From a virus: 64,000 nucleotides of DNA. The notes beneath the pieces are model-generated. The model did not search any database. It saw nothing but the letters and a program-made list of their open reading frames with translations, and was not told where the DNA came from. The stretch covers positions 50,095-114,094 of IMG/VR virus record IMGVR_UViG_3300021961_000037; one strand, written 5' to 3'. The position numbers and the translations under genes are program-made. Each line of letters starts with the position of its first letter. Within the stretch, counting starts at the first letter, position 1. This document shows, piece after piece, positions 23,865 to 46,429 of this stretch.

Positions 23865-24200
23865 ATGGCGATTTCAAGAACAGAAACAAGACTGGGCGGT
23901 CCTACTTCGCTCGGTACCTCTACGACCGCAATTTGTTCTGCCAGTGCAGGCGTAACGGAGGTCATCAAGCAGTTGCTCATCTGCAATACGGATACTGTTG
24001 AGCGCACTTTTAGTCTCGCCATCGGTACTGCGGCGACGGCTACGAACCGTTTCTTTTCCGCCATGCCGATTGGCGCGAATGACACGATTGTTTTGGATAC
24101 TGCGATAGTTCTTGCTCCAACGGAAACACTTGAGGGTTTGGCTGATACGGCAAGCAAGGTCGTTGTTACTGCTCTTGGCTGGGAAAAGACGACTACCTGA
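23865..24200 (+). CDS. Small beta-rich tail protein (family C, copy 2)
   Basis: A 111-residue protein: TETRLGGPTSLGTSTTAIC, EVIKQLLICNTDTVERTF-SLAIG, and DTIVLDTAIVLAPTETLEG. It is clearly homologous to the copy at 27876 (TETRLGGPTQLGTSTTTVC), more distantly to the others. Stop and next start overlap by one base (TGATGG), tying it to the Gly-rich adhesin behind. Confidence 0.65.
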   Translation: MAISRTETRLGGPTSLGTSTTAICSASAGVTEVIKQLLICNTDTVERTFSLAIGTAATATNRFFSAMPIGANDTIVLDTAIVLAPTETLEGLADTASKVVVTALGWEKTTT

Positions 24201-29168: not shown

Positions 29169-30940
29169 TGAGTATCTCAGGCGCACGTAAACCAAGACTC
29201 GCTACAGAGTACGGTATTGCATCTGGCGGTACTGAATCAGATATAACCGTTTCAGGTGTCTCATACAAACTTCATACATTTGCGGCAACAGGTACGCTTT
29301 CGGTTACTCAACCCGGTTGGTTTGATGTGCTTACCATCGCTGGTGGCGGTGGAGGCGGTGGAAGCAATGGGAGCGACTTCCATGGCGGAGGCGGTGGCGG
29401 TGGCGGAGCCCAACTAACGACAATGTACCTATCCTCCAACGCAACAGTGACGGTCGGTGCTGGAGGAAATGGTGGTGCAATAGGTGGAGGAACAAAACCC
29501 TCAGATGGAACATCATCATCTGTCGGCGGTGCTGTTCTTTCAAATGGAGTTGCTGCTGCTGGTGGTGGTGCTGGCGCTGACGGTTGGGGTAACAAGAATT
29601 CCAATGGTGGTTCAGGTGGCGGTGGAGGAATGGAGGCATCAAGTACAAAAGGTTTTGGTATCCCAACACAAGGTAATGATGGTGGTGCAGGATTTAATAG
29701 CAGGGGTCCAGGAAACGGCGCTGGCGGTGGTGGTGGTGCGGGTGGAGTCGGTGGAGCCGGCACTTCGTCTGCTGGTGGCGCTGGTGGCGATGGCGTTGAC
29801 ATATCTTCGTGGCTTGGAAGTGGAGCCCCTTCGTCTCCGTACTACATGGCGGCTGGGGGAGGTGGAGCAAGATACAGCGGAAGTAGCGGTGCTGGCGGTT
29901 CCTCTATTGGCGGCAATGGTGGCTCCAATACGACAGGAAGCGCAGCGACTGCAAGCAGGGCTTCTGGTGGCGGTGGTGCTTCTGGTGCTGGATACAACTC
30001 TGGAGGAAACGGTTCTGGAGGAATCGTCTATATCCGTAGAAGAGTCTCTGGATCTGCTGTAGGAACGCTGACGTATCTCCCGGTTTTGAATAATGTCGAG
30101 TATTTGATTATCGGTGGCGGTGGCGGTGGGGGAGGACGTCATGGTGGTGGCGGTGGTGCTGGTGGTTACCGTTCATCGGTGAGCGGAGAATCCTCTGGCG
30201 GTGGCGCATCCGCCGAAGACAAATTATTATTTACTGCTGGAAGCACATACTCAATCACTGTTGGCGCTGGCGGTCCAGGTGGTACTGCAAACAATAACGG
30301 AACGCTCCCAAGAGCAACATCGGGTAGCAATAGTTCTGCTTTTGGTATTACATCAACTGGTGGCGGCGCGGGTGGAAACGGGAATGTTGCTGGTGAAGCA
30401 AATGGAATTGCTGGCGGTTCTGGTGGTGGCAGTGTTCCTTCTGGTACTGGTGGCGCTGGTACTGCAAATCAGGGGTATGCCGGAGGAAATGGCGGCAGTA
30501 CTTATCTTGGTGGCGGTGGAGGTGGTGCATCTGCTGCTGGTTCAAATTACTCTGGTTCGACTGCAGGCAATGGTGGCAATGGACTTGCGTCAAGCATCAC
30601 TGGCTCCTCCATAACCCGTGCTGGAGGTGGCGGAGGTGGTGGATGGACTGGCAACACTGCTGGAACTGGCGGTTCCGGTGGAGGCGGTGCTGGTGTCGCC
30701 AACTCTGGAACAAAAGCAACAAGTGGCACTGCCAACACTGGTAGCGGTGGCGGAGGTGGAGGCACTGACTCTGCCCCAAATGCTGGTGGTGGTGACGGTG
30801 GTGCAGGTGTCGTCATCGTTCGTTACCCGACAGCAAACGCCACTGGTCTATCGGTAACTGGCGGAACTATTACAACATCGGGCAGTTACACCATTCATAC
30901 ATTCAACGCAACTGGAACCTTCACGGTGGCACGGGCATGA
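29168..30940 (+). CDS. Double glycine-rich tail adhesin (copy 4, two units)
   Basis: A 590-residue protein with two Gly-rich units in one chain. Unit 1 starts near FDVLTIAGGGGG and closes at NGSGGIVYIRRRVSG. Unit 2 runs from NNVEYLIIGGGGGG through long Gly/Ser/Ala/Asn runs to GAGVVIVRYPTANA and a SYTIHTFNATGTFTVA end. This looks like an in-frame fusion or duplication of the single-unit genes. The start ATG overlaps the stop of the previous gene. Confidence 0.75.
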   Translation: MSISGARKPRLATEYGIASGGTESDITVSGVSYKLHTFAATGTLSVTQPGWFDVLTIAGGGGGGGSNGSDFHGGGGGGGGAQLTTMYLSSNATVTVGAGGNGGAIGGGTKPSDGTSSSVGGAVLSNGVAAAGGGAGADGWGNKNSNGGSGGGGGMEASSTKGFGIPTQGNDGGAGFNSRGPGNGAGGGGGAGGVGGAGTSSAGGAGGDGVDISSWLGSGAPSSPYYMAAGGGGARYSGSSGAGGSSIGGNGGSNTTGSAATASRASGGGGASGAGYNSGGNGSGGIVYIRRRVSGSAVGTLTYLPVLNNVEYLIIGGGGGGGGRHGGGGGAGGYRSSVSGESSGGGASAEDKLLFTAGSTYSITVGAGGPGGTANNNGTLPRATSGSNSSAFGITSTGGGAGGNGNVAGEANGIAGGSGGGSVPSGTGGAGTANQGYAGGNGGSTYLGGGGGGASAAGSNYSGSTAGNGGNGLASSITGSSITRAGGGGGGGWTGNTAGTGGSGGGGAGVANSGTKATSGTANTGSGGGGGGTDSAPNAGGGDGGAGVVIVRYPTANATGLSVTGGTITTSGSYTIHTFNATGTFTVARA

Positions 30941-32663: not shown

Positions 32664-33602
32664 TTGCCAGGTCAATCACGGAACACGCAGGGCGGAAAAT
32701 CGCTTGCAACGCAGTTGAGTCCTCGCAATATGCGGACTGGAACTGGTCAAGTGAACGCATTGTGGCAGGGTCAAGGTCCACCGTTTCTTGCTACTGGTGG
32801 TACTGGAACAACGCTGAACGGATTTAGGTATTTGGTATTCACAAGCAGCAGCACTCTTACCGTTACTGACGGTGGGACCGCAGAGGTTCTTGTTGTCGCT
32901 GGTGGCGGCGGTGGCGCATCAAACAACGGTGCTGGTGGTGGTGGAGGCGGTATCCGCACTAGTACTGGGCTTACTTATCAAAGTTTGGAATTCTCGTCCG
33001 GAACCTATTCCGTGACGGTCGGGAGTGGCGGCACAGCACCTGGCGATGGAGTCGTAGGCAATGGAGGCAAGGGCGGTAATAGCAGCATTGTTCACAGCGG
33101 TGGCACTCTTTCTGCAACTGGTGGCGGAGCAGGAGTTTACGTTGGCGATGGTGGTGATGGTGGTTCGGGTGGTGGCAGAAACCAATACAATGGTGGCAGT
33201 CGTGGCGGTTTAGGCAACCAAGGTGGCTACACGCCGTCAGAAGGAAATAATGGTTCTGCTGGCGGCTCACCGAATGGTATCGGTGGCGGAGGTGGTTTCA
33301 ATGCTGCAACCAGTACCGGTCACGGAGCACAAGGTTTGACAGTAAATAACCTTGATTCCAACTTGTCAACGATTCTCGGTTATACGGTTATTTCGTCTGG
33401 TGGTGGTGGTTCTGGTAACTGCAACGCTGGTGGAACAAACGGCGCTGGTGGAACAGGTGCAGGAGGAGGCGGATACGGCAATAATGCTGGTGCTGGTGTT
33501 TCCTATGGTTCTGGCGGAGGTGGAGGAAATAACTGTTTCGGCTCCGTCTATCACGGCGGTGTTGGAAAATCAGGTGTCGTTGTGGTGAGGTTCCCAGCGT
33601 GA
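32664..33602 (+). CDS. Glycine-rich tail adhesin (copy 5)
   Basis: A 312-residue protein with TTG start at 32664, GGAGG ten bases before. A ~75-residue head leads to AEVLVVAGGGGGASN, long Gly/Ser/Asn/Ala runs with some aromatic residues, two Cys (SGNCNAGG, NNCFGS), and a final GVVVVRFPA strand. The C-terminal closing domain of the other copies is absent. Oxygenase genes begin 300 bases further on. Confidence 0.7.
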   Translation: MPGQSRNTQGGKSLATQLSPRNMRTGTGQVNALWQGQGPPFLATGGTGTTLNGFRYLVFTSSSTLTVTDGGTAEVLVVAGGGGGASNNGAGGGGGGIRTSTGLTYQSLEFSSGTYSVTVGSGGTAPGDGVVGNGGKGGNSSIVHSGGTLSATGGGAGVYVGDGGDGGSGGGRNQYNGGSRGGLGNQGGYTPSEGNNGSAGGSPNGIGGGGGFNAATSTGHGAQGLTVNNLDSNLSTILGYTVISSGGGGSGNCNAGGTNGAGGTGAGGGGYGNNAGAGVSYGSGGGGGNNCFGSVYHGGVGKSGVVVVRFPA

Positions 33603-33904: not shown

Positions 33905-34438
33905 GTGCTTCAATTATTCGAAGACCTATTAGACCCGGATTATGCAAAAACTATTGAAAAAACAATGCTGTCAAACGCATTCCCATACTATTTCTTCGCC
34001 GACATTGATTATGGGAAAGGCAATGATGTTTATAACTTTGGATTTTCCCACACATTCGTTGACCAGTTTGCCGAATCACGAAGTGATTTTTTAGAACTTG
34101 TTTTGCCTGTTGCTTTTGCAATCGGTGATGCACTTGATCTGAAACTTACGCAACTTATACGAATTCGTGGGGTTATGTTGACACCAATTGGCATCGGATA
34201 CAACCATGTCCGACATACGGACTTGGCCAGTGACCCAGACTCATTGACTGCCGTGTACTATGTGAACGATTCGGATGGGGCGACCACCATATACAACGGA
34301 GAAGATGTAGTGAGTGTCAATCCAAAGCAAAACAGTGCTGTCGTATTTGATACACATATGGAACATCATGGTGCAAAACCCGTAAAAACAGCATCACGGG
34401 TGGTTTTGAATATAAACTTCAGAGGTGAACCACAATGA
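33905..34438 (+). CDS. 2OG-Fe(II) oxygenase, prolyl-hydroxylase-like (1)
   Basis: A 177-residue protein, GTG start. The double-stranded beta-helix motif is complete: H104-T-D106 in HVRHTDLASDP, distal His at 154 or 155 (HMEHHGAKP), and R165 for 2-oxoglutarate. The strands AVYYVNDSDGATTIYNG and SAVVFDT fit the P4H-like fold. Such enzymes hydroxylate Pro, Lys or other side chains using O2, Fe(II) and 2-oxoglutarate. It follows adhesin genes and overlaps the next oxygenase by four bases. Confidence 0.8.
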   Translation: MLQLFEDLLDPDYAKTIEKTMLSNAFPYYFFADIDYGKGNDVYNFGFSHTFVDQFAESRSDFLELVLPVAFAIGDALDLKLTQLIRIRGVMLTPIGIGYNHVRHTDLASDPDSLTAVYYVNDSDGATTIYNGEDVVSVNPKQNSAVVFDTHMEHHGAKPVKTASRVVLNINFRGEPQ

Positions 34439-35049
34439 CTTCCAAACCCATTATTGAGCAGTGGTTCCCTAAACCTTTATATATTGTGAATGACTTCATG
34501 GTCGATGAGTTGGTGATGTATAAAAAATGGTTATACGAACTGTTTTCTTTAAATGATGACATGAAGAGGACGGAAGAATTAAATGTAAATAGCACGCATA
34601 ACATGACAACTCTTCATACGCAGGATATTTTCAGGAACTTGTCAAACGAGATAACGAAGAATGCAACTCAATTCGTGAGAATGCTCGGGTATTCTGGCGA
34701 CCTTTTCATTAACAACATGTGGGCTAATCATGTTGTCAAGGGTGAATACTTATTCCCCCACAACCATCCGAACAGCATGTTGAGCGGCGCCTACTATGTT
34801 GAGTCTGACCACCCCGAAGATGTAATCAAATTTTACGATAATCCCATGAACATGCTTCCTGCGCCAGACGAGTACACATCACTTAGTTACGATTATTGTG
34901 CATACAGATGCCAGCCTGGAAGACTGATTCTCTTTAAGAGCGATTTCATTCATGGCTGCCCTGCCCTAAAAGGGGAAAGCAAAATTGTGATGTCTTTCAA
35001 TATTGGGTTTGTCGGTTCTTTTGATTTTGAGGTCACCAAACCCGCATAA
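34435..35049 (+). CDS. 2OG-Fe(II) oxygenase, HxH family (2)
   Basis: A 204-residue protein. The motif FPHNHPNSMLSGAYYVES (H109, H111), the distal H173 in SDFIHGCPALKGES, and K183 are the signs of the second family of phage 2OG-Fe(II) oxygenases (the type named 2OG-FeII_Oxy_5), seen often in cyanophages. Coupled to the previous oxygenase by an ATGA overlap. Substrate unknown. Confidence 0.75.
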   Translation: MTSKPIIEQWFPKPLYIVNDFMVDELVMYKKWLYELFSLNDDMKRTEELNVNSTHNMTTLHTQDIFRNLSNEITKNATQFVRMLGYSGDLFINNMWANHVVKGEYLFPHNHPNSMLSGAYYVESDHPEDVIKFYDNPMNMLPAPDEYTSLSYDYCAYRCQPGRLILFKSDFIHGCPALKGESKIVMSFNIGFVGSFDFEVTKPA

Positions 35050-35337: not shown

Positions 35338-37494
35338 ATGACAGTTCGCAGAATACGACTAAGACGAGATACTGCTTCGGCGTGGACCTCTGCTAACCCA
35401 ACCCTTGCGCTTGGTGAAATTGCATGGGAGTCGGACACATCCAAGATAAAAATAGGTGACGGTACTACTGCATGGACTTCCCTTGCCTATTACAATGCCT
35501 CACTCAACAGCATTGGCGATGTTACGATTACTGACGTAGCCAACGGCGACTTTTTGCGTTGGAACGGTTCGGCATGGATTAATGACGCCGTAAACCTGTC
35601 AACGGACACGGTCGGCGATTTTGTCCAATCCCTTGTGGCGGGTACTGGTGTTACCGTTTCCAATAACAGTGGAGAAGCAGCCACACCAACAATTCAAATT
35701 GGGCAAGCCGTCGGCACGACAGACAATGTAACTTTCAATACCGTCACCGCCGATCTCACCGGTGATGTAACCGGAAATGCAGACACCGCAACAACTCTAG
35801 AGACGGCAAGAACAATCTCGCTCGGCGGGGACCTGAGCGGCTCAGCATCGTTTGACGGTTCAGCAGACATAACGATTACCGCCACGATAAGTGCCGACTC
35901 AACAGTCCTTGGCACTGATACAACTGGAGATTACGTTGAGTCACTTGTCGCAGGTACTGGCGTAACTCTCACAAACAACACAGGCGAGGGGGCAACCCCT
36001 ACGGTTGCAATCGGCCAAGCAGTCGAAACCACAAGCGATGTCACATTCAATACCGTCACCGCCGACTTGACGGGCAACGCCGACACTGCGACGACCCTTG
36101 AGACTGCTCGCACCATCTCGCTTGGTGGAGATTTGTCGGGCTCAGCATCATTTGATGGCTCGTCCGACGTCACAATAACTGCAACCATCGGTGCTGACTC
36201 TGTTGCCCTGGGTACCGACACGACTGGAAACTATGTTTCCGATGTAACTGGCGGAACAGGCGTAACGGTAACACATACTCCGGGTGAAGGTTCGAGCCCG
36301 TCAGTTGCCATTGGTCAGGCTGTTGGAACTGCAGATGATGTCACATTCAATACGGTGACTGCAGATTTGACTGGCGATGTCACAGGCAATGCTGACACAG
36401 CAACCACACTTGAAACCGCCAGAACAATTTCTCTCGGTGGTGACCTTTCGGGGTCTGCCTCGTTTAACGGTTCTGCAGATGTCACAATCACGGCGACGAT
36501 TGGCGCTGACTCGGTTGCACTTGGCACTGACACAACTGGCGACTACGTTGGTTCGCTCGTTGCTGGCACGGGTGTCACCTTGTCCAACAACTCTGGTGAG
36601 GGAGCCACACCAACGGTCGCCATCGGTCAGTCGGTAGGAACATCCGATAGCCCAACCTTTGCTGGAGCGACATTGGATGCAGTACAAGTTGGAATCACGG
36701 CAGCGGGAGAGATTGACACCGCCTCGGGCAACTTGACCATTGACTCTGCTGGTGGCACGGTAACCGTTGACGACAATTTGGTTGTAACAGGAGATTTGAC
36801 GGTTTCGGGAACGACCACAACGGTCAACACCGAAACTATCAACCTTGCCGACAATATCATCACCCTAAACAGCAATGAAACTGGTACTCCGAGTCAGAAT
36901 GCCGGTCTTGAAGTAGAGCGTGGAACATCGGCAAATGTTGAGTTGCGCTGGAACGAGACAAGCGATAAATGGGAATTGACAGAAGATGGAAGCACCTATT
37001 ACGACATTGCGACAGAATCCTATGTTGATGCGCAGTCCATTGCTTCACTTGATGATGTCGGCGATGTCACGATTACCTCTGCGGCTTCGGGCGAGTTCCT
37101 CAAGTGGAACGGCTCGGCGTGGGTAAATGATTCAATTCCAACAATCAACACGCTTGATGATGTCGGCGACGTCACGATTACCTCGGCGGCTTCGGGTGAG
37201 TTCCTTAAGTGGAACGGTAGTGCATGGGTAAACGATTCAATTCCGACAATCAACACGCTTGATGACGTCGGCGACGTAACGATTACATCGGCAGCGTCTG
37301 GCGACTTTCTCAAGTGGAATGGTTCTGCGTGGGTCAATGACCCAATTAACCTCGGCACGGACACCACTGGCAACTATATGGTCAATGTTTCTGCCGGAGA
37401 CGGAATAAATGTTTCACACACACAGGGTGAGGGTTCAACAGCAACAATATCCGCAAGGGATACTTTGGTAAGGTTCTACATGGAGGTCATCTGA
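35338..37494 (+). CDS. Repeat tail fibre with Mtd-N-like head (718 residues)
   Basis: Head: RRIRLRRDTASAWTSANPTL, IKIGDGTTAWTSLAYY. Then a shaft of the same ~100-residue repeats as the giant fibre (five (L/S)TDT motifs by my count), the TGTPSQNAGLEVERGTS module, and near the end three nearly identical 35-residue modules (LDDVGDVTITSAASG). It ends soon after HTQGEGSTATISARDTLV. It looks like a shorter mosaic of the giant fibre at 16122 on another head. Probably an alternative side fibre. Confidence 0.8.
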   Translation: MTVRRIRLRRDTASAWTSANPTLALGEIAWESDTSKIKIGDGTTAWTSLAYYNASLNSIGDVTITDVANGDFLRWNGSAWINDAVNLSTDTVGDFVQSLVAGTGVTVSNNSGEAATPTIQIGQAVGTTDNVTFNTVTADLTGDVTGNADTATTLETARTISLGGDLSGSASFDGSADITITATISADSTVLGTDTTGDYVESLVAGTGVTLTNNTGEGATPTVAIGQAVETTSDVTFNTVTADLTGNADTATTLETARTISLGGDLSGSASFDGSSDVTITATIGADSVALGTDTTGNYVSDVTGGTGVTVTHTPGEGSSPSVAIGQAVGTADDVTFNTVTADLTGDVTGNADTATTLETARTISLGGDLSGSASFNGSADVTITATIGADSVALGTDTTGDYVGSLVAGTGVTLSNNSGEGATPTVAIGQSVGTSDSPTFAGATLDAVQVGITAAGEIDTASGNLTIDSAGGTVTVDDNLVVTGDLTVSGTTTTVNTETINLADNIITLNSNETGTPSQNAGLEVERGTSANVELRWNETSDKWELTEDGSTYYDIATESYVDAQSIASLDDVGDVTITSAASGEFLKWNGSAWVNDSIPTINTLDDVGDVTITSAASGEFLKWNGSAWVNDSIPTINTLDDVGDVTITSAASGDFLKWNGSAWVNDPINLGTDTTGNYMVNVSAGDGINVSHTQGEGSTATISARDTLVRFYMEVI
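37051..37365 (+). repeat. Three tandem copies of a 105-bp fibre module
   Basis: Copies start at 37051, 37156 and 37261, each coding DDVGDVTITSAASG(E/D)FL followed by KWNGSAWVND. They are nearly identical in DNA, unlike the older repeats of the shaft, which points to recent duplication. Confidence 0.8.
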
Positions 37495-37495
37495 T

Positions 37496-37858
37496 ATGTC
37501 ATTGACACAAAAACGACTGGTTGGTCCAACCCAACTCACGACGACGACAAGCACGGTCCTATACACCGTGCCGCAAAGCACGACGACCATCGTGAAGCAG
37601 ATTATCCTCTGCAACACGACTGGTTCTGCAGTAACCGTGACGCTGGTTTGCAAGCCGTTGAACGTCGCTCAGGCTTCTTCGCAGAACTTCTTCAACACCC
37701 TGTCGGTTGGGGCAAACGAAACATTGACCTTCCAAACCAACTTGGTTCTGACAAACAACGGAAGCACAGCAAACGCAACGAACAGTGACCAAATCATTGG
37801 TTCCGCAAGTGCAAACACCGCCATCAACATCATCATGAACGGAGTCGAAGAAGCGTAA
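37496..37858 (+). CDS. Small beta-rich tail protein (family C, copy 5)
   Basis: A 120-residue protein: TQKRLVGPTQLTTTTSTVLY, TIVKQIILCNTTGSAVTVTL, VGANETLTFQTNLVLTNNG, ending INIIMNGVEEA. Fits the same plan as copies 2 and 3. Starts one base after the fibre stop and shares a base with the next start (TAATGG). Confidence 0.6.
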   Translation: MSLTQKRLVGPTQLTTTTSTVLYTVPQSTTTIVKQIILCNTTGSAVTVTLVCKPLNVAQASSQNFFNTLSVGANETLTFQTNLVLTNNGSTANATNSDQIIGSASANTAINIIMNGVEEA

Positions 37859-38595
37859 TGGTCGCTAGTTTTGTTCGCCTGAACAACTCGTCACTTTCGA
37901 CAGCAGAGTCAACATCAAGCATTTCTGGCTCGCTGGTGAATTTGGCAAGTTATCTGAACCTTCCAGACCCTGTCTATGGGACTGGAGCGGATGGCGACGC
38001 AACCATTTCGGCTGACACCACGCTGACAAGCGACAAGTTCTACAAGAACCTCACGATTAACGCCAACATAAAACTAAACCCAGGCGGGTACAGAATATTC
38101 GTACAGAATGTTTTGACCCTAAACAGCGGTTCGGAGATTGGCTACACCACTGGATTTTCCACGGCTGGGACTCTCGCTCAAGGCGGAGCAACAAATACGG
38201 CAGTTACGCACAGCCTTGGTGGTTCTAGTGGCGCACAGACGGCGACTGCGCCAACGGCCGCCCTTGGTGGTTCTGCGTACTACCAGCAGCCCCTACAAGC
38301 GATTCGTGGCTGGGCGGTAACAGCAGCCTCAACTACTCCGACGTTCTTGCGTGGTGGTGCTGGCGGCTCGTCTGGCGCTGGTGGCGGAGTTGTTCTTATT
38401 TCGGCTCGCTATATCACCGTTTCTTCGGGTACTGCGTATTTCAAGGCGCCTGGAACTGCTGGTTCCGGTGGCGGTGGTGGCGGGGTCATTCTTGTTGTTT
38501 CCTCTGCGTCGGTACTTAATGCAAGTGTTTCCACTGATGTAACTGGAGGAACTGGCGCATCGGCTGGCACGGTGAACTACATGCAGGTGGCGTGA
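37858..38595 (+). CDS. Tail adhesin with parallel-strand head (paralogue of 38597)
   Basis: A 245-residue protein. The head YGTGADGDATISADTTLTSD, FYKNLTINANIKLNPGGYRI and FVQNVLTLN is a short beta-solenoid-like domain found in many phage tip proteins. Then a Gly-rich part (FLRGGAGGSSGAGGG, APGTAGSGGGGGG) with strands GVVLISARYITVS and GVILVVSSASVLN. Head and plan are shared with the next gene. Confidence 0.7.
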   Translation: MVASFVRLNNSSLSTAESTSSISGSLVNLASYLNLPDPVYGTGADGDATISADTTLTSDKFYKNLTINANIKLNPGGYRIFVQNVLTLNSGSEIGYTTGFSTAGTLAQGGATNTAVTHSLGGSSGAQTATAPTAALGGSAYYQQPLQAIRGWAVTAASTTPTFLRGGAGGSSGAGGGVVLISARYITVSSGTAYFKAPGTAGSGGGGGGVILVVSSASVLNASVSTDVTGGTGASAGTVNYMQVA

Positions 38596-38596
38596 C

Positions 38597-39673
38597 ATGG
38601 CATTTGAGAGGCTTGGAGCAGACAGGAATCCCGTACAGAAGACGGGAACCGACAAATTGTTCGGTGCTGGCAGCGACGGAACAGTAACCATCTCCACGAA
38701 CACGTCGCTTTCACGCGACATGTATTACGCCAACCTCACTGTGAACTCTGGAATCACGCTTTTTACCAACGGATTCAAGATTTTTGTTAGCGGGAACTTG
38801 GTAAACGACGGCACAATAGGAATGCCTACTGGAACAGCACAGACGACTTCGGTCATGGCAGGAACGACCATGACGAGAATTGACGGTAATGCTGGGTATG
38901 TTTCGGGCGATGCCTTGTCGGGAACAATGACGATTGCCGAGGTCCGTGACATTGAAGCGCTTGTCACGGGCGTAATGCAAAAAGGTGCCACGCGAAGGGT
39001 GTGGTGGTCTGGTGCTACTGGAACTGCTGGCACTAGCGGAACCGCAAACCCCGGTGGTGGCGGAAATGCAACTGCTGGTACTGCGGGAACTGGTGGTTCG
39101 GCAGGTCAGGGCGGTGGCTCCGTTGTCGTTCTCGCCAAGTCAATTAGTGGGTCTGGAACATTTGTGAGCGAAGGAACTGCTGGAACTTCGGGAAATCCAG
39201 GAACCGCTGGAAGCAACGCACCGGGAAACCCAGGGCATAACCCCGGCGGGCATGCTGGCGCACATAATCCTGGCGGTCATGCACAAGGACATAACCCCGG
39301 CGGAACTGGCCATAACCCACCCGGTCACTTCCATCACCCCGGTCACCATCAGGCGCCGAATTGCGGAGTCCATGAAGTTTGGGGCTGCTCGCATCATCAC
39401 CCCGGTCACCACAACCCCGCGCACCAACACACAAACCCTGGAAACTCCTTCTCACATCCAGGAAACCCATTCCACTACTCACATCCAGGAAACCCATTCC
39501 ATTACAGTCACCCCGGCAACCCGTTCCACAACCCATCTTATTCTGGTGGCACTGCCAACCCAGGAAATGCAGGAAACCCAGGAAATGCTGGAAGTCTCGT
39601 TGTTTTGACCCGAGGAATCACTACCCATGTCGCAACCTCCAACTTGACATACGTGGAGGACCTAGATGACTAA
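38597..39673 (+). CDS. Histidine-rich X-Pro-Gly tail adhesin
   Basis: A 358-residue protein. Residues 1-140: beta-solenoid-like head (FGAGSDGTVTISTNTSLSRD, YYANLTVNSGITL) as in the gene before. Residues 140-210: Gly/Thr/Ala-rich strand pair with GGGSVVVLAKSISG. Residues 211-311: an extreme region of NPGGH, HNPGG and HPGH motifs, two Cys (256, 264) and three tandem HPGNPFHYS units; I count 25 His in residues 214-311. Residues 312-358: NPGNAG repeats and a final beta strand. The X-P-G triplets look like collagen-type or polyproline/polyglycine helices, the His could bind metal, and the prolines are possible targets of the nearby prolyl-hydroxylase-like enzymes (inference). Confidence 0.75.
   Translation: MAFERLGADRNPVQKTGTDKLFGAGSDGTVTISTNTSLSRDMYYANLTVNSGITLFTNGFKIFVSGNLVNDGTIGMPTGTAQTTSVMAGTTMTRIDGNAGYVSGDALSGTMTIAEVRDIEALVTGVMQKGATRRVWWSGATGTAGTSGTANPGGGGNATAGTAGTGGSAGQGGGSVVVLAKSISGSGTFVSEGTAGTSGNPGTAGSNAPGNPGHNPGGHAGAHNPGGHAQGHNPGGTGHNPPGHFHHPGHHQAPNCGVHEVWGCSHHHPGHHNPAHQHTNPGNSFSHPGNPFHYSHPGNPFHYSHPGNPFHNPSYSGGTANPGNAGNPGNAGSLVVLTRGITTHVATSNLTYVEDLDD
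39455..39529 (+). repeat. 27-bp tandem repeat coding HPGNPFHYS
   Basis: Two full and one partial copy (starts 39455, 39482, 39509). They encode the His/Pro/aromatic end of the adhesin. Differences between copies are few and mostly silent. Confidence 0.75.
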
Positions 39674-39680
39674 TATCGAC

Positions 39681-39686
39681 TATAAT
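39681..39686 (+). promoter_or_regulatory. -10-like TATAAT before the small gene at 39738
   Basis: TATAAT 52 bases before ATG 39738, just after the adhesin stop. TTGACA at 39644 is 31 bases upstream, too far for a normal spacer. Could begin the transcript of the enzyme island. Confidence 0.35.
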
Positions 39687-39737
39687 GGTAATGTCAACAG
39701 TGCAGTAACAAACGCAAGTTATTGGAGGATACCTAGG

Positions 39738-39974
39738 ATGCCATACGATTTTTCAAGCCTTTCAGCAGATGACGTTGCACAGGCAAAAGCCCGTGTAAAA
39801 AAGGAACTTGAGCGACAGATGTACGAGGCAACCCTCAAACTGGAACTCAACCCCGCGACATATGACTACGATGCCCACACCATTCCGGAAGACGAGTTTG
39901 CGCCGGGATATGCGTACAAACTGCAGATTTCTGCATGTTTGAGCCAAATTGCCTTCATTAATGGCATGGAGTAA
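39738..39974 (+). CDS. Small helical hypothetical protein
   Basis: A 78-residue protein (MPYDFSSLSADDVAQAKARV...), charged and helical, with GGAGG at 39724-39728. An in-frame ATG at 39666 with its own GGAGG would add 24 residues and overlap the adhesin stop; I prefer 39738 because a -10-like element lies between the two. No family recognised. Small helical proteins of this kind are common at the end of fibre blocks. Confidence 0.55.
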   Translation: MPYDFSSLSADDVAQAKARVKKELERQMYEATLKLELNPATYDYDAHTIPEDEFAPGYAYKLQISACLSQIAFINGME

Positions 39975-39999: not shown

Positions 40000-40602
40000 A
40001 TGGACCATACAGAACTAGCGCCTTGCCTTGTCTTGTTCGAGGACGTTTTCAAGCCCGGTAACTTCATTGAGTTGCTTGAGGCTGAATGTCAACAGCAGTG
40101 GGGGTATCTGTCGTGGTACCTCACAACCGTTGGGCAGGGTCAAACACGGGTTGAGTACAGGTCATCTCTTGCGTGTGAACTTGGGGCATTGGGTCAACCG
40201 CTAAATGAAATAGCGGAACCGCGAATAATGCCGCTAGCAGAAAAATGGCACGACATTCACAATGACCTGCAAAAGTGTATATGGTCGTATAGAAACATGT
40301 ACGACATTGACGTAAAAGAAGACGAAGGAATGACGGTGCTCAAGTACAGCAAGGGTGCAGAGTACCGAGGACATGTTGACCACGCTCCGTCAAACCAAAG
40401 AGTTTTTAGCATCGTTGCGTTCGCAAATGACAACTTTGACGGAGGTGAATTGACATTCCCGATATTTGATGTGACAGTAAAGCCAAAGGCTGGAAGTGCG
40501 GTTTTGTTTCCTTCAAACTTCCCGTATTTCCACTACGCGCAGGCTGTCGGTTCAACGAACAACACAGACACCAAGTACTCATTTGTAACTTGGTTTAGGT
40601 AG
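40000..40602 (+). CDS. 2OG-Fe(II) oxygenase, prolyl-hydroxylase-like (3)
   Basis: A 200-residue protein. Motif YRGHVDHAPSNQRVFSIVAF gives H125-x-D127. The strand FDGGELTFP and the stretch KAGSAVLFPSNFPYFHYAQAV give the distal H178, and K192 in TKYSFVTWFR is the likely 2-oxoglutarate anchor. All P4H landmarks are present. It begins the enzyme island and is four bases from the halogenase start, so they are co-translated and may serve one pathway. Confidence 0.85.
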   Translation: MDHTELAPCLVLFEDVFKPGNFIELLEAECQQQWGYLSWYLTTVGQGQTRVEYRSSLACELGALGQPLNEIAEPRIMPLAEKWHDIHNDLQKCIWSYRNMYDIDVKEDEGMTVLKYSKGAEYRGHVDHAPSNQRVFSIVAFANDNFDGGELTFPIFDVTVKPKAGSAVLFPSNFPYFHYAQAVGSTNNTDTKYSFVTWFR

Positions 40603-40606
40603 ACCG

Positions 40607-42070
40607 ATGCTGCCGAGGGTATGCATTGTAGGTTCTGGAACCTCCGGATTGGTTACCGCCTTGATGTTGAGGGCGTTTTTCCCCAACATCAAGGTGACGG
40701 TTATATCTTCCAAAGACATCGGGATAATTGGTGTCGGCGAGGGTTCTACTGAGCACTGGCGTCATTTTTTTCAGCAGCCATGCGATATAGACGCTGGAGA
40801 GATGGTTGCCCGGTGCGCCGCCACCCATAAATACGGAATCAAATTTGAGGGCTGGACTACACACACTCCAATCTATTACCACAGCATTAGCGGAGAGGGT
40901 CACGGACCAAATAACTTTAACGCTGTTTACTCTTTCGCCCACTTCAACGACTGGTTGCTAACGCCATCAATGATTCCACACCTGGATAATGACATGGTTG
41001 TAGATGACGTCAAGCAACCCCATGGCACCACAAATCAGTTTCACTTTGACACTCATAAACTAAACAACTTTTTGACGTATCTTGCCGAAAAACGTGGCGT
41101 AACATTTGGCGACGGGAAGATTGTAAAAATTGACAGGAATTCAGAAACGGGTTTTATTGAGTCGGTAACAACTGACACAAACATTAAGTGCGAGGCAGAT
41201 TTCTTCGTTGATGCAAGCGGATTTGCAAGAGTGCTGATGAGTAAACTTGTTGAAAACGATGAGTTTGTCAGTTACAGAAAATACCTGCCGTGCGACTCAG
41301 CAGCCGTGTTCCAGACGGAATCTGACCCATCTGGGAAAATCCACCCATATACGAGGGCTCGCGCGATGCCGCATGGCTGGATGTGGGAAATACCGACACA
41401 GGAGCGCAGAGGAAACGGCTATGTATTTGCCTCAGATTTCTGCTCCGACGAGCAGGCAGTCAAGGAACTGTCCGAGGCTCATGGTAGGGACATAGAGCCG
41501 GCAAGAATAATTAGATTCAAGTCTGGCTACTACAAGCACGGTATTGCATTTAACTGTGCGGCTGTCGGTCTTTCTAGTTCATTTGTGGAACCGCTTGAGG
41601 CGACCGCAATAAGCACCAGCATTCAGCAATCACGCATGATTGCGGCAATTTTGCCGACCTTCATGCGTGGCAATAAGGCACAAACAAAGAACTATCAGCA
41701 ACGCTACGAAAGTTTGCTTGAAAATATTGTCACGATGATTTCTCTCCACTACATCTCGGATAGAAATGATTCAGAGATGTGGAAGGCGCAACAACATGCC
41801 GAACTTCCGGAAACACTGAAGGTGCTCCTCGAATTGTGGAAGGAGAGAATGCCCGAAAAATACGATGTTCCGCATTTCGGGTATGAACTGTTTCTTTCAG
41901 AGCATCTTTGGCATGTTGCACAGGGTCAAGGAGTTCTTGATAAGTCTGTTGCCCTGGACCAATTAAACGCCTACTGCTCACATGACCCGTGTGCAAAAAT
42001 TTTCTCCTCCAAAAAACTGCAGGCAGCAGCAACAAGGAAAATTGACCATGCGCTTCTCTATAAGGCGTAA
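40607..42070 (+). CDS. Flavin-dependent (tryptophan-type) halogenase
   Basis: A 487-residue protein, full length for the family. FAD site: GSGTSG (9-14) in the first beta strand-helix; GVGEGST (42-48). The likely catalytic Lys is K75 in CAATHKYGIKFEGW. The halogenase signature W-x-W-x-I-P is present as WMWEIP (258-263), and the conserved Glu motif as VEPLEATAIS. These enzymes use FADH2, O2 and halide to make HOX, which halogenates an aromatic substrate held near the Lys. A flavin reductase is needed and none is seen, so a host reductase would supply FADH2. A cyanophage halogenase (VirX1) is known. Neighbouring oxygenases suggest a joint modification pathway, substrate unknown. Confidence 0.85.
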   Translation: MLPRVCIVGSGTSGLVTALMLRAFFPNIKVTVISSKDIGIIGVGEGSTEHWRHFFQQPCDIDAGEMVARCAATHKYGIKFEGWTTHTPIYYHSISGEGHGPNNFNAVYSFAHFNDWLLTPSMIPHLDNDMVVDDVKQPHGTTNQFHFDTHKLNNFLTYLAEKRGVTFGDGKIVKIDRNSETGFIESVTTDTNIKCEADFFVDASGFARVLMSKLVENDEFVSYRKYLPCDSAAVFQTESDPSGKIHPYTRARAMPHGWMWEIPTQERRGNGYVFASDFCSDEQAVKELSEAHGRDIEPARIIRFKSGYYKHGIAFNCAAVGLSSSFVEPLEATAISTSIQQSRMIAAILPTFMRGNKAQTKNYQQRYESLLENIVTMISLHYISDRNDSEMWKAQQHAELPETLKVLLELWKERMPEKYDVPHFGYELFLSEHLWHVAQGQGVLDKSVALDQLNAYCSHDPCAKIFSSKKLQAAATRKIDHALLYKA

Positions 42071-42908
42071 ATCGCCAACGGTTAAGCCTGGAATCTGGGA
42101 AAACCTTCCAGTCCCAAAACCAAACCAGTTATTTGCCGCCCCTGTTGACAATCGTTTGTGGCATCCGAAATTGGCGATTAGACCATCTCGCTCCAAAACA
42201 CCTGAATGGTTTAAGGATATTCCGCAAGGCGAGGCGAGCCTCAAGCGATGCTACGGGGTTGCAGACTATCTAAGAACTGGATACGTGGTTCCGATGTGGG
42301 CGACGTTGGACGTAAGAATGCCCCTAAATAAATTGGATAAAAGATGGGAAGCACGTTTTGATATACCAGCGTCCCATCTATTTACCGCAGAGATAGCAAC
42401 CGACCTTTCCGAGCAAGACAATAACTACTACTTTAGTTATGAATCATTGATGCGAAATCAATTTCCGATTCACCAAACGGGGAGTGAGTGCCCGGTTGCA
42501 AAACAAAAAAACCGCGAGTCTTCATACCTAAAATTACCAAGTCCCTGGGTGGTGAGAACTGCGCCCGGATGGTCCTCCCTCTTCCTGCCAACCCTCTGGG
42601 AGCCAAATGATGACTATGAGGTTCTTGGAGCCGTGGTGCATACGGATTACTATCCGAACGCCAACTGTGTAATAAACATAAAGACAAACAGACCGCTAAG
42701 GATTGAGGAGGGAACAATCATGCAACACATAATCCCCTTCAAGCGAGACGCATCAATCTTGGAGACAGAGGTAATACGAGGAGACCAAACCGCCCATACA
42801 CTGTTGAGGGATACTGGATTCGGTCCAGTTTTCACAACAAAAGAAGACACGCACGGCGGGTACAAAAAAGAACAACGCAGAATGGATGGATTGGTTTCTG
42901 ATGTATAG
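42048..42908 (+). CDS. Conserved hypothetical protein, DUF6065-like
   Basis: A 286-residue protein; ATG 42048 (MRFSIRRKSPTVKPG) with AAGGA before it, overlapping the halogenase end by 23 bases. Segments LKLPSPWVVRTAPGWSSLFLPT, VVHTDYYPNANCVIN and EEGTIMQHIIPFKRD recall a family of unknown function found beside oxygenases and aminotransferase-like genes in phages and bacteria (my recollection is DUF6065). It looks like a beta-sandwich. Possible role: substrate carrier or binding partner for the oxygenases/halogenase; no catalytic residues can be named. Confidence 0.6.
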   Translation: MRFSIRRKSPTVKPGIWENLPVPKPNQLFAAPVDNRLWHPKLAIRPSRSKTPEWFKDIPQGEASLKRCYGVADYLRTGYVVPMWATLDVRMPLNKLDKRWEARFDIPASHLFTAEIATDLSEQDNNYYFSYESLMRNQFPIHQTGSECPVAKQKNRESSYLKLPSPWVVRTAPGWSSLFLPTLWEPNDDYEVLGAVVHTDYYPNANCVINIKTNRPLRIEEGTIMQHIIPFKRDASILETEVIRGDQTAHTLLRDTGFGPVFTTKEDTHGGYKKEQRRMDGLVSDV

Positions 42909-43353
42909 AGTCATATTTTGCCCTCAAGAAAAACCAGTTGAAGATGCCTACGACATGGCAAAAGAGTGGGGGTTGTCCATACAGCACGGTGACTCGGCGC
43001 GCACCGAGGACATGGAGTTTGACAGGACGGAAGTGCAAGTTCTCTCCATTCCAATTCAGCGCGGATTTGATGCGGAAAGAATTGAGTGTTTGGTCAATAT
43101 GCCGGTGTCGGTAAAGTACTCAAACGATTGGGACGACGTTTCTGATTACACATTTCTACTGCGCCCAACTGGTATGCGTGTCGGCAAAACCAACTGGGGT
43201 GTCCCATCGATACTTATGGACAAACATAGGGCGGTAATGAACATTGCCGTTAGTTTCCCTGGCTCATACGAACTTGTCTCTGTCAAGGATGGAGTAGATA
43301 GAGAAATATCCGAGTTTATAGCGATGGAGCGCGAAGGGGAATATCCAGAGTGA
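42901..43353 (+). CDS. Hypothetical protein of enzyme island
   Basis: A 150-residue protein starting MYRVIFCPQEKPVEDAYDMA at 42901; ATG 42886 is also possible. Alpha/beta with KYSNDWDDVSDYTFLLRPTG and an acidic end. Its start overlaps the previous stop and its stop overlaps the next GTG, so it is part of the same translation chain as halogenase and oxygenases. No family recognised. Confidence 0.55.
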   Translation: MYRVIFCPQEKPVEDAYDMAKEWGLSIQHGDSARTEDMEFDRTEVQVLSIPIQRGFDAERIECLVNMPVSVKYSNDWDDVSDYTFLLRPTGMRVGKTNWGVPSILMDKHRAVMNIAVSFPGSYELVSVKDGVDREISEFIAMEREGEYPE

Positions 43354-44057
43354 TTGAATTTATCGGTCACAAATCAACACACATAGCAGTAGTCCCAGAC
43401 ATAATTCCTCCTGACTTGTGCAATGGCTTGATTGATGCATGCAAGCGCGACTGGAATTCTTTGTTTTACCAAGGCCCGACACTTTCTGGTGTGGATACAT
43501 CAATTAAGTACACGATGGATTTTGACTTCAGCGGGAAACAAGCACAGGAAAAAGGTTGTGATTACGACCTTTACAAAAATTACGAAGACAGAATCACGCA
43601 ATGCCTGTGGACCGCAGTATCTCTTTACGTTGAGGCGTATTCAGAAATGCGGGCTGCCCCAGGATTGTGGGATACCGGATATCGTCTTCAGACCTACAAG
43701 CAAGGAACTGGATATTATCGGTCGCACCACGACGGCGCGCCTTGGGACCCAGAACCGACAAGTCTTCGCGTGTTGGGTGTAGTGATGTATTTGAATACTG
43801 TTGAGCGTGGAGGAGAAACCGGCTTCCCTATCCACGACCTCAAAGTAAAGGCTAATGCTGGCTCAATAGCCCTTTTCCCAGCATCTTGGACACATCCTCA
43901 TCAGTCATGTGTTCCTGTTTCTTGCGACAAATGGATAATTAGCACCTTCATCGTATCTAATCGACGCCAGCCGACAATTAACGAACCAAGCCAACAAGTT
44001 CCAGTTACGGTCATTGACACCAATCCAGAGAATCAGGGAAATGAGGAGGGAACATGA
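43350..44057 (+). CDS. 2OG-Fe(II) oxygenase, prolyl-hydroxylase-like (4)
   Basis: A 235-residue protein, GTG start (GTGA overlap). Metal motif YYRSHHDGAPWD with H126-x-D128; strands VLGVVMYLNTVERGGETGFP; then NAGSIALFPASWTHPHQS with distal His at 182 or 184, and K194 in CDKWIISTFI. This is a canonical P4H-like arrangement. The last ~30 residues are a Pro/Glu-rich tail without structure. Overlaps the next oxygenase by four bases. Confidence 0.85.
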   Translation: MIEFIGHKSTHIAVVPDIIPPDLCNGLIDACKRDWNSLFYQGPTLSGVDTSIKYTMDFDFSGKQAQEKGCDYDLYKNYEDRITQCLWTAVSLYVEAYSEMRAAPGLWDTGYRLQTYKQGTGYYRSHHDGAPWDPEPTSLRVLGVVMYLNTVERGGETGFPIHDLKVKANAGSIALFPASWTHPHQSCVPVSCDKWIISTFIVSNRRQPTINEPSQQVPVTVIDTNPENQGNEEGT

Positions 44058-44704
44058 AATCCAAGTTCCCCCTAGTCATAAAGCAACTTGTTCCAAGCGC
44101 TGAAGTCCGAAAATTCATATCCGACACACAAGGCAGTCAAAGAACAGTCAAAAGCACTGGGTGGGGTCGTGCCACCAATGACATACCGATAATAAAAGAC
44201 ATGTCAACCCAAACTATTGGTGGTTCGTTTTGGGACATTATGTATTCTTGCGCCAAGGAGCACTTTGGTGAAACGGCGCTCCCTTCATACTGGAAGTGGT
44301 CTCGCTATTCGCCAAAATACGGGGCGCCGAATATTCCACCACACATTGACATAAATGCGTGTACTTACACAATTGATTTGCAGTTGATGGGGGATGTTGA
44401 GTGGGAGATATTTGTTGAAGGGACACCATACACAATGCAAGACGGTGACGCCCTTTTATACCTTGGCTCTGAGCAAATGCATTGGCGACCCAAATACCCG
44501 AATCGCAACTATAAATCATTCTTGGAAATGTGTTTTATTCATTTTGTTGAACCCGGGCACTGGTATCACGAAAATGGTCCAAAGTGGATAGATTCAGATG
44601 ATGTGAGATTGCCGTGGAGAGAGAAAATGATGCATTTGCTGCCAAAATATAAGTGCGACACATATCAGCCATTTGAGGACCCAACTGAATTTCCCGGGTA
44701 CTAG
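44054..44704 (+). CDS. 2OG-Fe(II) oxygenase-like protein (5)
   Basis: A 216-residue protein. NIPPHIDINACTYTIDLQL gives H97-x-D99, and GDALLYLGSEQMHWRP gives the distal H143; the 2-oxoglutarate anchor could be R151 or K154. Overall layout is a double-stranded beta-helix, but the flanks differ from the P4H type, so the substrate may be different (small molecule or protein surface). Coupled to the previous gene. Confidence 0.7.
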   Translation: MKSKFPLVIKQLVPSAEVRKFISDTQGSQRTVKSTGWGRATNDIPIIKDMSTQTIGGSFWDIMYSCAKEHFGETALPSYWKWSRYSPKYGAPNIPPHIDINACTYTIDLQLMGDVEWEIFVEGTPYTMQDGDALLYLGSEQMHWRPKYPNRNYKSFLEMCFIHFVEPGHWYHENGPKWIDSDDVRLPWREKMMHLLPKYKCDTYQPFEDPTEFPGY

Positions 44705-44713
44705 GATTACCAG

Positions 44714-45466
44714 ATGGCAAATAACAAAATCACTGTTTACTGGTCCCCATCACACGCACTGGGAAGCCAGTATGAGTACAATCACCTCTACCCGTTCCCT
44801 GACTCTCTATATCAGGAGTTGGCACCGCTCAAGGCTGACCTAAAAGAAAACCGGGATGATTTTCTGAGGTGTCCAGCAGTAGGCAACAAAATGAAGAAAA
44901 CATTTGTGTTTAGGTCCTCCACAGATACGCATGTGAAGATTGTTGACGGACAGTACGTATCGTATTGGGTCAACTCGGAAGACGACAAACGGCGTCATCA
45001 AACCACGGTTGAACTGCTTCATTCCCCAACTCTTTTGAATCATTTTTTGTTGAACTACCTACATCCGGTTATTTTTTTTACGGATGTTGATTCATTGATT
45101 ATGTCTCTTACTCCGCCGTATTTTCACAAAACAACCCATTCGCAATACGGTGCAATCGTTCCTGGGGAGTTTGACATTGCTTCATGGTTTCGACCAATAA
45201 ATTTTGAATTTCAACTATGGGAGGGAGTTGACGAACTAATCGTTCCTGCTGGCGAGCCGTTGGGGTATGTGGATTTCCATACGAGCAGTCAGGTTGAATT
45301 GCGCAGGTTTAACATGACTCAAAATTTAAAGAAGATATCAAGTTCGCTTGTTCACGTCTCGCCTCACCGAAGGTATGCAAAGTTGTCTGAGAAGTACAAG
45401 TTGTTCCGCAATGCCCGCATATCCCAAGGAATCCTCAGAGAGATACGCGACAACCTTGTTGGCTAG
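44714..45466 (+). CDS. Conserved hypothetical protein of enzyme island
   Basis: A 250-residue protein. Beta-rich middle: VIFFTDVDSLIMSLTPPYF, GEFDIASWFRPINFEFQLWE, DELIVPAGEPLGYVDFHTS. The order 'body, PxG(E/T)P(L/I)xxxxF' is similar in style to the protein at 42048, so both could be distant relatives with the same fold. Last + strand gene before the minus-strand block. Function unknown. Confidence 0.55.
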   Translation: MANNKITVYWSPSHALGSQYEYNHLYPFPDSLYQELAPLKADLKENRDDFLRCPAVGNKMKKTFVFRSSTDTHVKIVDGQYVSYWVNSEDDKRRHQTTVELLHSPTLLNHFLLNYLHPVIFFTDVDSLIMSLTPPYFHKTTHSQYGAIVPGEFDIASWFRPINFEFQLWEGVDELIVPAGEPLGYVDFHTSSQVELRRFNMTQNLKKISSSLVHVSPHRRYAKLSEKYKLFRNARISQGILREIRDNLVG

Positions 45467-45673: not shown

Positions 45674-46429
45674 TTAGCACTCGCCAAACGGGATTTTTGC
45701 GCTTTGCCGTATTCTTGAAATAACAGGTTCTACGGTGTTCCATTTAATGTTAGTCCCCCATGTTGAAGATATTGTGTATCTCGTGCATCCACCTATTTGG
45801 GTGACGCCGTGCAAGTGGTTGTTATCGGGGTCGTGCGCAAAAACCTTGCCTTTTTGGGGAATCATTGATTTTTCAAAAAATGGGTAAAATGTTTCTCCCC
45901 CAGAGTAATCATCATTCAAATAGATAACAGAACCGCATATTCTGTCCATTCCGTCAACATGGTCAATGTGTGTCATCTGATAACTTCCGGGCTCCCATCT
46001 GACTATTCCAATTTGGTCACAATACACATTTTCCCCATCGGCAAGTTGTTTACTGAATAAATCACGCAGACGATCATGTATGTCAATTACTAGTTTTTTA
46101 TATTTAGAATCTTGGTCATCGGACAGCATTGATTCACATAACAGTGGGGTATTTCTATCTTCCCAGAAACCAAAAGTTTGTTTTTTGGTGAGCCAAGCGT
46201 TTTTTGTTTTTGCACGATTAATCAAATAATCGCATTCTTCTGCTGACAAAAAATTTTCTTGCTCTACGCCTTTGAATGTTATTTCTTCGAATTTTGGCGC
46301 ATAACCGTATTCATATGTGTGTAAATGTTTCTTTAGATATTTTATGCTGAATGGTCTATTAGTTTTTGTGTCTACATAGCGAATAAAGTTTTGGTACTCG
46401 GCGGTTGATTTATCGGAAAAATCAAACAT
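45674..46429 (-). CDS. 2OG-Fe(II) oxygenase, prolyl-hydroxylase-like (6)
   Basis: A 251-residue protein. Residues 50-90 include NFLSAEECDYLINRAKT, the usual first helix of P4H-like enzymes. Metal motif MTHIDHVDGMDR gives H154-x-D156; strand SVIYLNDDYSGGETFYPFF; then FAHDPDNNHLHGVTQIGG with distal H207 and R217 in CTRYTISSTW. All catalytic positions are present. Its ATG directly follows the stop of the degenerate relative upstream. Confidence 0.85.
   Translation of the reverse strand: MFDFSDKSTAEYQNFIRYVDTKTNRPFSIKYLKKHLHTYEYGYAPKFEEITFKGVEQENFLSAEECDYLINRAKTKNAWLTKKQTFGFWEDRNTPLLCESMLSDDQDSKYKKLVIDIHDRLRDLFSKQLADGENVYCDQIGIVRWEPGSYQMTHIDHVDGMDRICGSVIYLNDDYSGGETFYPFFEKSMIPQKGKVFAHDPDNNHLHGVTQIGGCTRYTISSTWGTNIKWNTVEPVISRIRQSAKIPFGEC

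Follow-up and report, generated by a model that had tools for sequence, protein, structure and literature searches.

A histidine-rich insert in a predicted phage tail-tip adhesin and its conserved pairing with halogenase and 2OG oxygenase genes

Gene block and anatomy of the adhesin

The window, a stretch of 64,000 nucleotides, belongs to a viral record of 114,094 bases in which sheath, baseplate and fibre genes are present, and the phage was therefore classified as contractile-tailed. Its terminase was nearest to those of Gordonia phages with an identity of about 40%, which is too distant to name a host. The genes around the predicted tail-tip adhesin are listed below by their positions in the window.

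33905-34438, plus strand: 2OG-Fe(II) oxygenase encoded shortly before the fibre (PF13640, E 7.5e-10)
34435-35049, plus strand: further 2OG-Fe(II) oxygenase (PF13759, E 1.1e-14; phrog_81)
35338-37494, plus strand: long tail fibre whose N-terminal domain is Mtd_N (PF18454, E 5.8e-12; tail-fibre PHROGs)
37496-37858, plus strand: p120, conserved fibre-block protein of 120 aa (syntenic in relatives)
37858-38595, plus strand: p245, paralogue of the adhesin without the insert, 245 aa, beta-helix-like model (hhalign, AF2, fold comparison)
38597-39673, plus strand: tail-tip adhesin-like protein, 358 aa, bearing the His-rich insert (ORF, alignment of relatives)
39233-39529, plus strand: His-rich insert, residues 213-311, between Gly-rich repeats, with two Cys mid-insert (AF2, composition, alignment)
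39666-39974, plus strand: small ORF of 102 aa separating the adhesin and oxygenase genes, lacking a detected counterpart in some relatives
40000-40602, plus strand: predicted 2OG-Fe(II) oxygenase, P4H-like (PF13640, E 8.2e-13)
40607-42070, plus strand: predicted flavin-dependent (tryptophan) halogenase (PF04820, E 6e-98)
41982-42908, plus strand: p308, a phrog_7084 protein that weakly matches DUF6065 and is a constant member of the cassette (PHROG, synteny)
42886-43353, plus strand: p155, cassette protein of 155 aa without a family (synteny)
43350-44057, plus strand: second 2OG-Fe(II) oxygenase of the cassette (PF13640, E 2.2e-9; syntenic)
44054-44704, plus strand: protein of a PHROG labelled ferrochelatase (phrog_2954, E 1.9e-15; no Pfam match)
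44714-45466, plus strand: second phrog_7084-type protein (PHROG)
45674-46429, minus strand: 2OG-Fe(II) oxygenase, bringing those with a Pfam match near the fibre block to five

The ferrochelatase label of the phrog_2954 protein is probably a misnomer. The phrog_7084 proteins at 41982 and 44714 both belong to the constant part of the cassette beside the halogenase, and were weakly similar to the protein encoded behind the halogenase VirX1 in phage Syn10. Five tail-region proteins matched phrog_2295 (22277-23146, 24200-25231, 28218-30940, 32664-33602); the protein at 32664-33602 is Gly_rich_2 (PF21722), and the phrog_2295 proteins form a serial set of Gly-rich tail proteins. Among 50,697 deposited phage records, no match was obtained at the thresholds used for the adhesin, its paralogue, p120 and the tape-measure-like protein.

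An adhesin-like tip protein had been proposed at 38597 by the first-pass annotation, and this is supported. No Pfam, NCBIfam or confident PHROG family was matched by the protein and, therefore, it was not filed as a gp38-type member. The position behind the fibre gene suggests a location at the receptor-contacting tip. The AF2 model, built on 13 relatives, had pLDDT values of 67-83 in most core blocks (residues 26-75, 141-212 and 312-335) and of about 30 over residues 213-311, the His segment, which is predicted to be disordered. The low pLDDT between modelled blocks suggests that the insert protrudes from the Gly-rich part just before the last strands. In the full-protein alignment the insert was located at the identical place in 13 of 13 relatives and its length differed widely. 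Absence of the segment from close relatives with the same host range had been proposed as evidence against a hydroxylated, metal-bound tip; the opposite was found for the relatives, since all 13 aligned over the full length carry the segment.

The paralogue shares the N-terminal domain with the adhesin family (hhalign probability 99.6 over 91 columns) and contains 0-4 His per 80 residues in most relatives. The pLDDT and pTM of its AF2 model were 90 and 0.84, respectively. The structural neighbours of this model were beta-helix proteins, including ice-binding proteins, at weak Z values of up to 6.3 obtained with a second aligner, and the best Z of the adhesin model was 6.7. Foldseek gave no PDB match with E below 1 for either model, and gp38 (PDB 6F45) was not among the fold-search results, which excludes nothing. 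BFVD matches to giant-virus collagen-like proteins (E 2e-6 to 1e-5, TM about 0.25) were distrusted because the matched model was mostly of low confidence. The models and repeats suggest that the core of the adhesin is beta-helical and Gly-rich. Insert-specific diversification by a DGR was set aside, as no PF00078 match indicating a reverse transcriptase was detected in the 114,094-base record, which may be a fragment.

A prolyl-hydroxylase-type oxygenase had been noted 330 bases downstream, and the gene at 40000 indeed starts 327 bases past the adhesin stop at 39673, with the 102-aa ORF intervening, and recurs as a neighbour in relatives. Its product was assigned as a putative P4H-like 2OG-Fe(II) oxygenase by a profile match above the cut-off and the H-x-D...H...K pattern. 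H125-x-D127, H178 and K192, which we take to be the catalytic residues, were invariant (13 of 13). The nearest solved structures were bacterial prolyl 4-hydroxylases (PDB 3ITQ and 5HV0, E 7e-11), the alignment being limited to the C-terminal catalytic part. Mere chance as the cause of the oxygenase's proximity was dropped because the pair recurs in relatives, though one origin may explain the recurrence.

The first-pass annotation had overlooked that the gene after the oxygenase encodes a halogenase and that the pairing spans a broad phage group. The product of this gene was assigned as a putative flavin-dependent halogenase by the Trp_halogenase profile, the GxGxxG and W-x-W-x-I-P motifs (present as GSGTSG and GWMWEIP), and K75 and E331, presumably the active-site Lys and Glu, which were invariant (13 of 13). 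VirX1 was among its PDB matches (E 2.6e-49). Weak NCBIfam matches to QhpG, LodB and GoxB, flavoproteins modifying residues of other proteins, were far below the cut-off and are a lead only.

Composition and conservation of the His-rich insert

Positions 39236-39529 encode exactly 98 residues of the adhesin, and direct counting gave the 25 His that the first-pass annotation had reported. The units NPGGH, HNPGG, HPGH and HPGNPFHYS and the two Cys described there are all present in the translation, and 16 Pro, 18 Gly and 11 Asn were counted in addition. In the 35 other ORFs of the window, His accounts for 164 of 13,688 residues (1.2%) and the densest 98-residue stretch contains at most 10 His, corresponding to a binomial P of about 5e-26 for the segment.

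A 27-nt repeat occurs in three copies at 39448-39528. These tandem copies and the large length differences among relatives would fit a functionless low-complexity filler arising from repeat slippage. Such an origin is scarcely credible, however, given that the dN/dS of the insert was 0.04-0.57 in 11 of 12 close pairs of relatives (undefined in one) and thus below 0.6 in each of the 11 computable pairs. Moreover, the insert persists across deeply diverged phages and its His were retained at 88% of the aligned positions compared to 71% for the other residues (28 close pairs, core identity 75-99.5%); the next-best retained were Gly (81%), Arg (81%) and Pro (80%). The dS of the insert was higher than that of the core in all the computable pairs, pointing to a loop whose DNA changes rapidly but whose protein keeps its His content. 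An origin of the His run from the minus strand or another frame was ruled out by the dN/dS values.

To describe the family, 240 unique ORFs with the N-terminal domain of the adhesin, paralogues included, were surveyed and scored by their largest His count per 80 residues. The counts were bimodal: 0-6 His in 160 ORFs, 9 in four and 11-38 in 76. In the His-densest 80 residues of the 76 His-rich inserts the mean His content was 27.4% and never fewer than 11 His were found. Pro-Gly was absent from 38 of these stretches, Trp from 57, Cys from 50, Tyr from eight, Pro from four and Asn from none. The conserved property of the insert is His, and Pro-Gly is not conserved.

An X-P-G periodicity with a collagen-like or polyproline helix had been proposed for the segment and did not hold up. 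The longest run of G-x-x triplets was 2 in the segment and 5 in the whole adhesin, with Gly spacings of 1 to 12, and Pro-Gly is dispensable in half of the related inserts. A collagen- or polyproline-like X-Pro-Gly helix that carries metal and is prolyl-hydroxylated by the oxygenase at 40000 could draw on the ten Pro-Gly pairs of the segment and on prolyl 4-hydroxylases being the nearest solved relatives of the enzyme. It is nevertheless very unlikely, considering the lack of a G-x-x register, the inserts devoid of Pro-Gly or even of Pro, and the AF2 model, which predicts no structure in the segment. Hydroxyproline also appears unlikely as the point of the system because the constant residues are His, at least 11 per 80, and Asn, present in 76 of 76 inserts.

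The inserts of six loci (L087, L090, L091, L092, L100 and L107) share a conserved aromatic stretch of the type HHPHNDGPHGG..HWW..PFPHYHQKPNGH, and a portion of their loop might fold into a metal site. At another locus, a fibre-like ORF (L070:7844-9901) contains dense H-x-H pairs, and a separate His-rich ORF with 37 His per 80 residues lies at the contig start.

Pairing of the insert with the enzyme genes

The gene order in the first adhesin-fetched loci with long enough contigs was fibre, p120, p245, His adhesin, 2OG oxygenase, halogenase, p308, p155 and second 2OG oxygenase. The loci L007-L010, which have the N-terminal domain without the insert, contained neither enzyme. For a sampling independent of the enzymes, viral contigs were scanned with the N-terminal domain alone, His-poor sequence first. 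The adhesin- and domain-seeded set consisted of 102 loci, of which 14 duplicates were dropped, and at least 4 kb of downstream sequence was required. Due to a short downstream flank, 24 His-poor loci and one His-rich locus were set aside; L196, among the former, ends before the insert; its twin L197 is His-rich and encodes both the halogenase and the oxygenase.

The halogenase and the P4H-like 2OG oxygenase were both found in 19 of 19 unique His-rich loci of this set, whereas none of the 41 His-poor loci had a halogenase or a 2OG oxygenase. The three 9-His loci L190, L191 and L193 contained the oxygenase only. Together with L194 they combine 9 His per 80 residues and a 2OG oxygenase with no halogenase match, and represent a natural intermediate with regard to the order of gains. 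In the domain tree, built from 143 rows over just 80 columns, four changes of the His-rich label were needed, one of them forced by well-supported branches, and there was one supported independent pair. The His-rich adhesins are close to one clade and the link rests on one or few origins, so that the 19 of 19 versus 0 of 41 contrast does not amount to many independent events. The association is a block held together over deep divergence, not a count of many independent gains.

In the opposite direction, the best 80 of at least 590 confirmed halogenase relatives, with identities to the window's halogenase down to about 42%, were used as seeds. Ten duplicates were dropped and at least 5 kb of upstream sequence was required, leaving out L061 (3.5 kb), L055, L079, L097, L099, L047 and one His-rich locus. 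Among the resulting 63 unique loci, a His-rich adhesin was found in 59, a 9-His adhesin in one (L125) and no such adhesin in three (L073, L074 and L084). The adhesin of L118, on the other strand and with 13 His per 80, was counted as His-rich.

The 74 unique His-rich adhesins came mostly from the halogenase scan and only their distances are informative. According to one tally, the halogenase lay no more than 2.5 kb downstream of 72 adhesins and 3-4 kb upstream of two; a finer tally put it less than 1.5 kb downstream for 40, between 1.5 and 3.2 kb downstream for 32 and upstream for two. A 2OG oxygenase was near 71 of the 74. The order was changed and the pairing kept in L053 and L119, with the oxygenase behind the halogenase, and in L095 and L101, with the halogenase upstream. 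In bacterial genome contigs, one locus (L207) encodes an insert that reaches 11 His per 80, and the genes after it were labelled 2OG-like and halogenase by eye from the translations. This locus is filed under a gammaproteobacterial MAG and is probably a stray viral contig.

A halogenase match was present in 82 deposited phage records, of which ten loci were examined. The halogenase was inside a tail-fibre block in only three of the ten, which counts against tailoring of a His-rich tip loop by the enzymes. In the cultured cyanophage Syn10, the characterised iodinase VirX1 (530 of 530 residues match PDB 6QGM) and a second halogenase are encoded after two Gly-rich proteins, whose His counts per 80 are 9 and 8; several 2OG/JmjC-type oxygenases follow. 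The layout of S-WAM1 was as in Syn10, with 7 and 6 His per 80 in the Gly-rich proteins. In S-SRM01, the halogenase lies between the fibre gene and the annotated gp37-gp38 adhesin tip; this adhesin (L216:10494-11582) has zero His in any 80-residue stretch and a Trp/Tyr/Cys-rich insert between Gly-rich parts; its lack of His also counts against such tailoring. A Gly-rich protein was located within about 4.6 kb of the halogenase in S-H38 and about 8 kb in HTVC008M, and no Gly-rich tip-type neighbour was seen near the halogenase in Syn1, S-PM2, P-SSM2, a single-cell virus and a faecal contig. The layouts of Syn10, S-WAM1 and S-SRM01 indicate that the tip-block setting extends beyond the phage group of the window, yet it is not universal.

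The Gly-rich fibre-block proteins L215:5330-6280 of Syn10 and L204:6554-7444 of S-H38 contain 35-36% Gly with C-x-x-C and C-H-C clusters, which are perhaps metal or disulphide sites. A His-rich ORF of S-H38 was rejected as kin of the adhesin, being an unrelated short protein that is apparently secreted. This unannotated 95-aa protein (L204:17832-18119) has a signal-peptide-like start and a His-rich remainder, and is a possible exported metal-binding protein.

The data could also be explained by a His-rich loop that acts only in metal binding or multivalent contact, the enzymes sharing the late block and serving a host metabolite, the envelope, DNA or cell protection. Halogenases without such an adhesin (L073, L074, L084, S-PM2, Syn1 and P-SSM2) are in agreement with separate purposes, as are the published guesses, host protection for phage prnA (PMC2984593, PMC9146016) and DNA repair for 2OG oxygenases (PMC9146016). 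However, the adhesin-seeded His-rich loci with enough flank always have the pair and their His-poor homologues never do, and the pairing persists where the order has changed. This explanation was considered unlikely, though a serious one.

Candidate function and comparison with known systems

The central finding is that a His-rich loop of the predicted phage tip and the genes for halogenase and 2OG oxygenase occur as a conserved pair. As the joint best explanation, for which the chances of being right and wrong were judged equal, a gp38-like tip would carry a His-rich metal-binding loop tailored by the co-encoded oxygenase and halogenase. The tip protein of the contractile-tailed phage would contact the receptor, its core holding out one long variable loop, as gp38 does, and this loop would be built from His instead of ordinary residues. 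The His would most likely bind a transition metal; the metal-bound loop would form a flexible, metal-cross-linked or metal-bridging sticky surface, leaving the other residues free to change. Before the virion leaves the cell, the 2OG oxygenase and the flavin halogenase would most likely tailor the loop, hydroxylating and/or halogenating its His, Tyr or Asn residues. The hydroxyl acceptor in the insert could be His, Asn or Pro. Since 57 of the 76 inserts lack Trp, a halogenase acting on the insert would have to use His or Tyr. Judged separately, metal binding by the loop is plausible from its composition, the gene association makes enzymatic tailoring plausible, and the loop may contact the receptor.

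Several observations led to the tailored-loop explanation. The adhesin gene follows that of the long fibre, and the tail block around them also contains sheath and baseplate genes; AF2 leaves exactly the His segment unstructured. The His counts are bimodal, the place of the insert is constant, His is retained preferentially and the dN/dS is low. The enzymes accompany the insert and are missing from the His-poor loci, and the layouts of Syn10 and S-WAM1 as well as L207 are in line with this. The explanation is weakened by the near-single clade, the scarcity of Trp, the S-SRM01 adhesin without His and the three halogenase loci without an adhesin. Phages carry many 2OG oxygenases anyway, which also counts against it, as does the fold search, in which no PDB match reached an E below 1.

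Instead of acting on the insert, the cassette might modify a neighbouring tip component, either the paralogue, which is poor in His, or the long fibre. It might also make a small halogenated ligand held by the His/metal loop. The paralogue and fibre are also in the block, and VirX1 accepts many small aromatic substrates (PMC8407142). Yet, when homologues with a common N-terminal domain are compared, the loci with the cassette differ from those without it in the His insert of the adhesin, and these alternatives were judged improbable.

In cyanophages, halogenase genes are common and the published suggestions of their role are speculative; in PMC2984593, PMC9146016 and PMC10452541 the phage halogenase gene is given either no known role or a protective one. 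No paper joining halogenase, His-rich loop and tail tip was found in full-text searches of open-licence literature. The pairing supplies a concrete candidate for a protein substrate of these halogenases, and in Syn10 the enzyme has already been purified and its structure solved. If the tailored loop is real, enzymatic tailoring and metal binding would be added to the ways in which a phage varies its receptor-binding surface, and the halogenase and many 2OG oxygenase genes would move from 'auxiliary metabolism' to virion assembly. A broader proposal, tentative and somewhat doubtful, is that phages chemically harden or functionalise their tail tips: a His-rich adhesin loop, elsewhere a Tyr/Trp-rich one, would be hydroxylated and halogenated by the products of adjacent genes and would bind metal, yielding a receptor-binding surface tailored after translation. 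Such tailoring would be the natural job of some viral flavin halogenases, VirX1 included.

Compared with a collagen-like triple helix, the segment of the window has no uninterrupted G-x-y repeats. The T4 gp37 needle holds His-coordinated iron near the fibre tip by regular H-x-H motifs in a trimer, whereas the His spacing in the segment is irregular. The Nereis jaw proteins Nvjp-1 and Nai11527 are His/Gly-rich and their zinc is held by His, and Nvjp-1 is described as halogenated and cross-linked (PMC13120676). As animal structural proteins they provide an analogy only, and no homology with the adhesin is claimed.

VirX1 is, like the enzyme of the window, a phage flavin-dependent halogenase encoded behind His-bearing Gly-rich tip-block proteins, and its substrates include diverse small aromatic compounds (PMC8407142). 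The halogenase of the window is distant from it, with 29% identity to the other Syn10 halogenase, and the Syn10 adhesins, which reach only 8-9 His per 80, seem to belong to another family.

The gp38 tips of T2-type phages (S16 and PP01) consist of a beta-helix domain and a polyglycine-II sandwich, and at the tip of the fibre they expose hypervariable receptor loops with Gly-rich motifs on either side (PMC12892980). Unlike gp38, the adhesin of the window has one very long His-rich loop, no Pfam match and adjacent oxygenase and halogenase genes. The resemblance of the layout is good: the model of the paralogue is beta-helix-like, the adhesin has Gly-rich repeats and a single variable loop, and it shares with gp38 the placement of the hypervariable loop between Gly-rich motifs.
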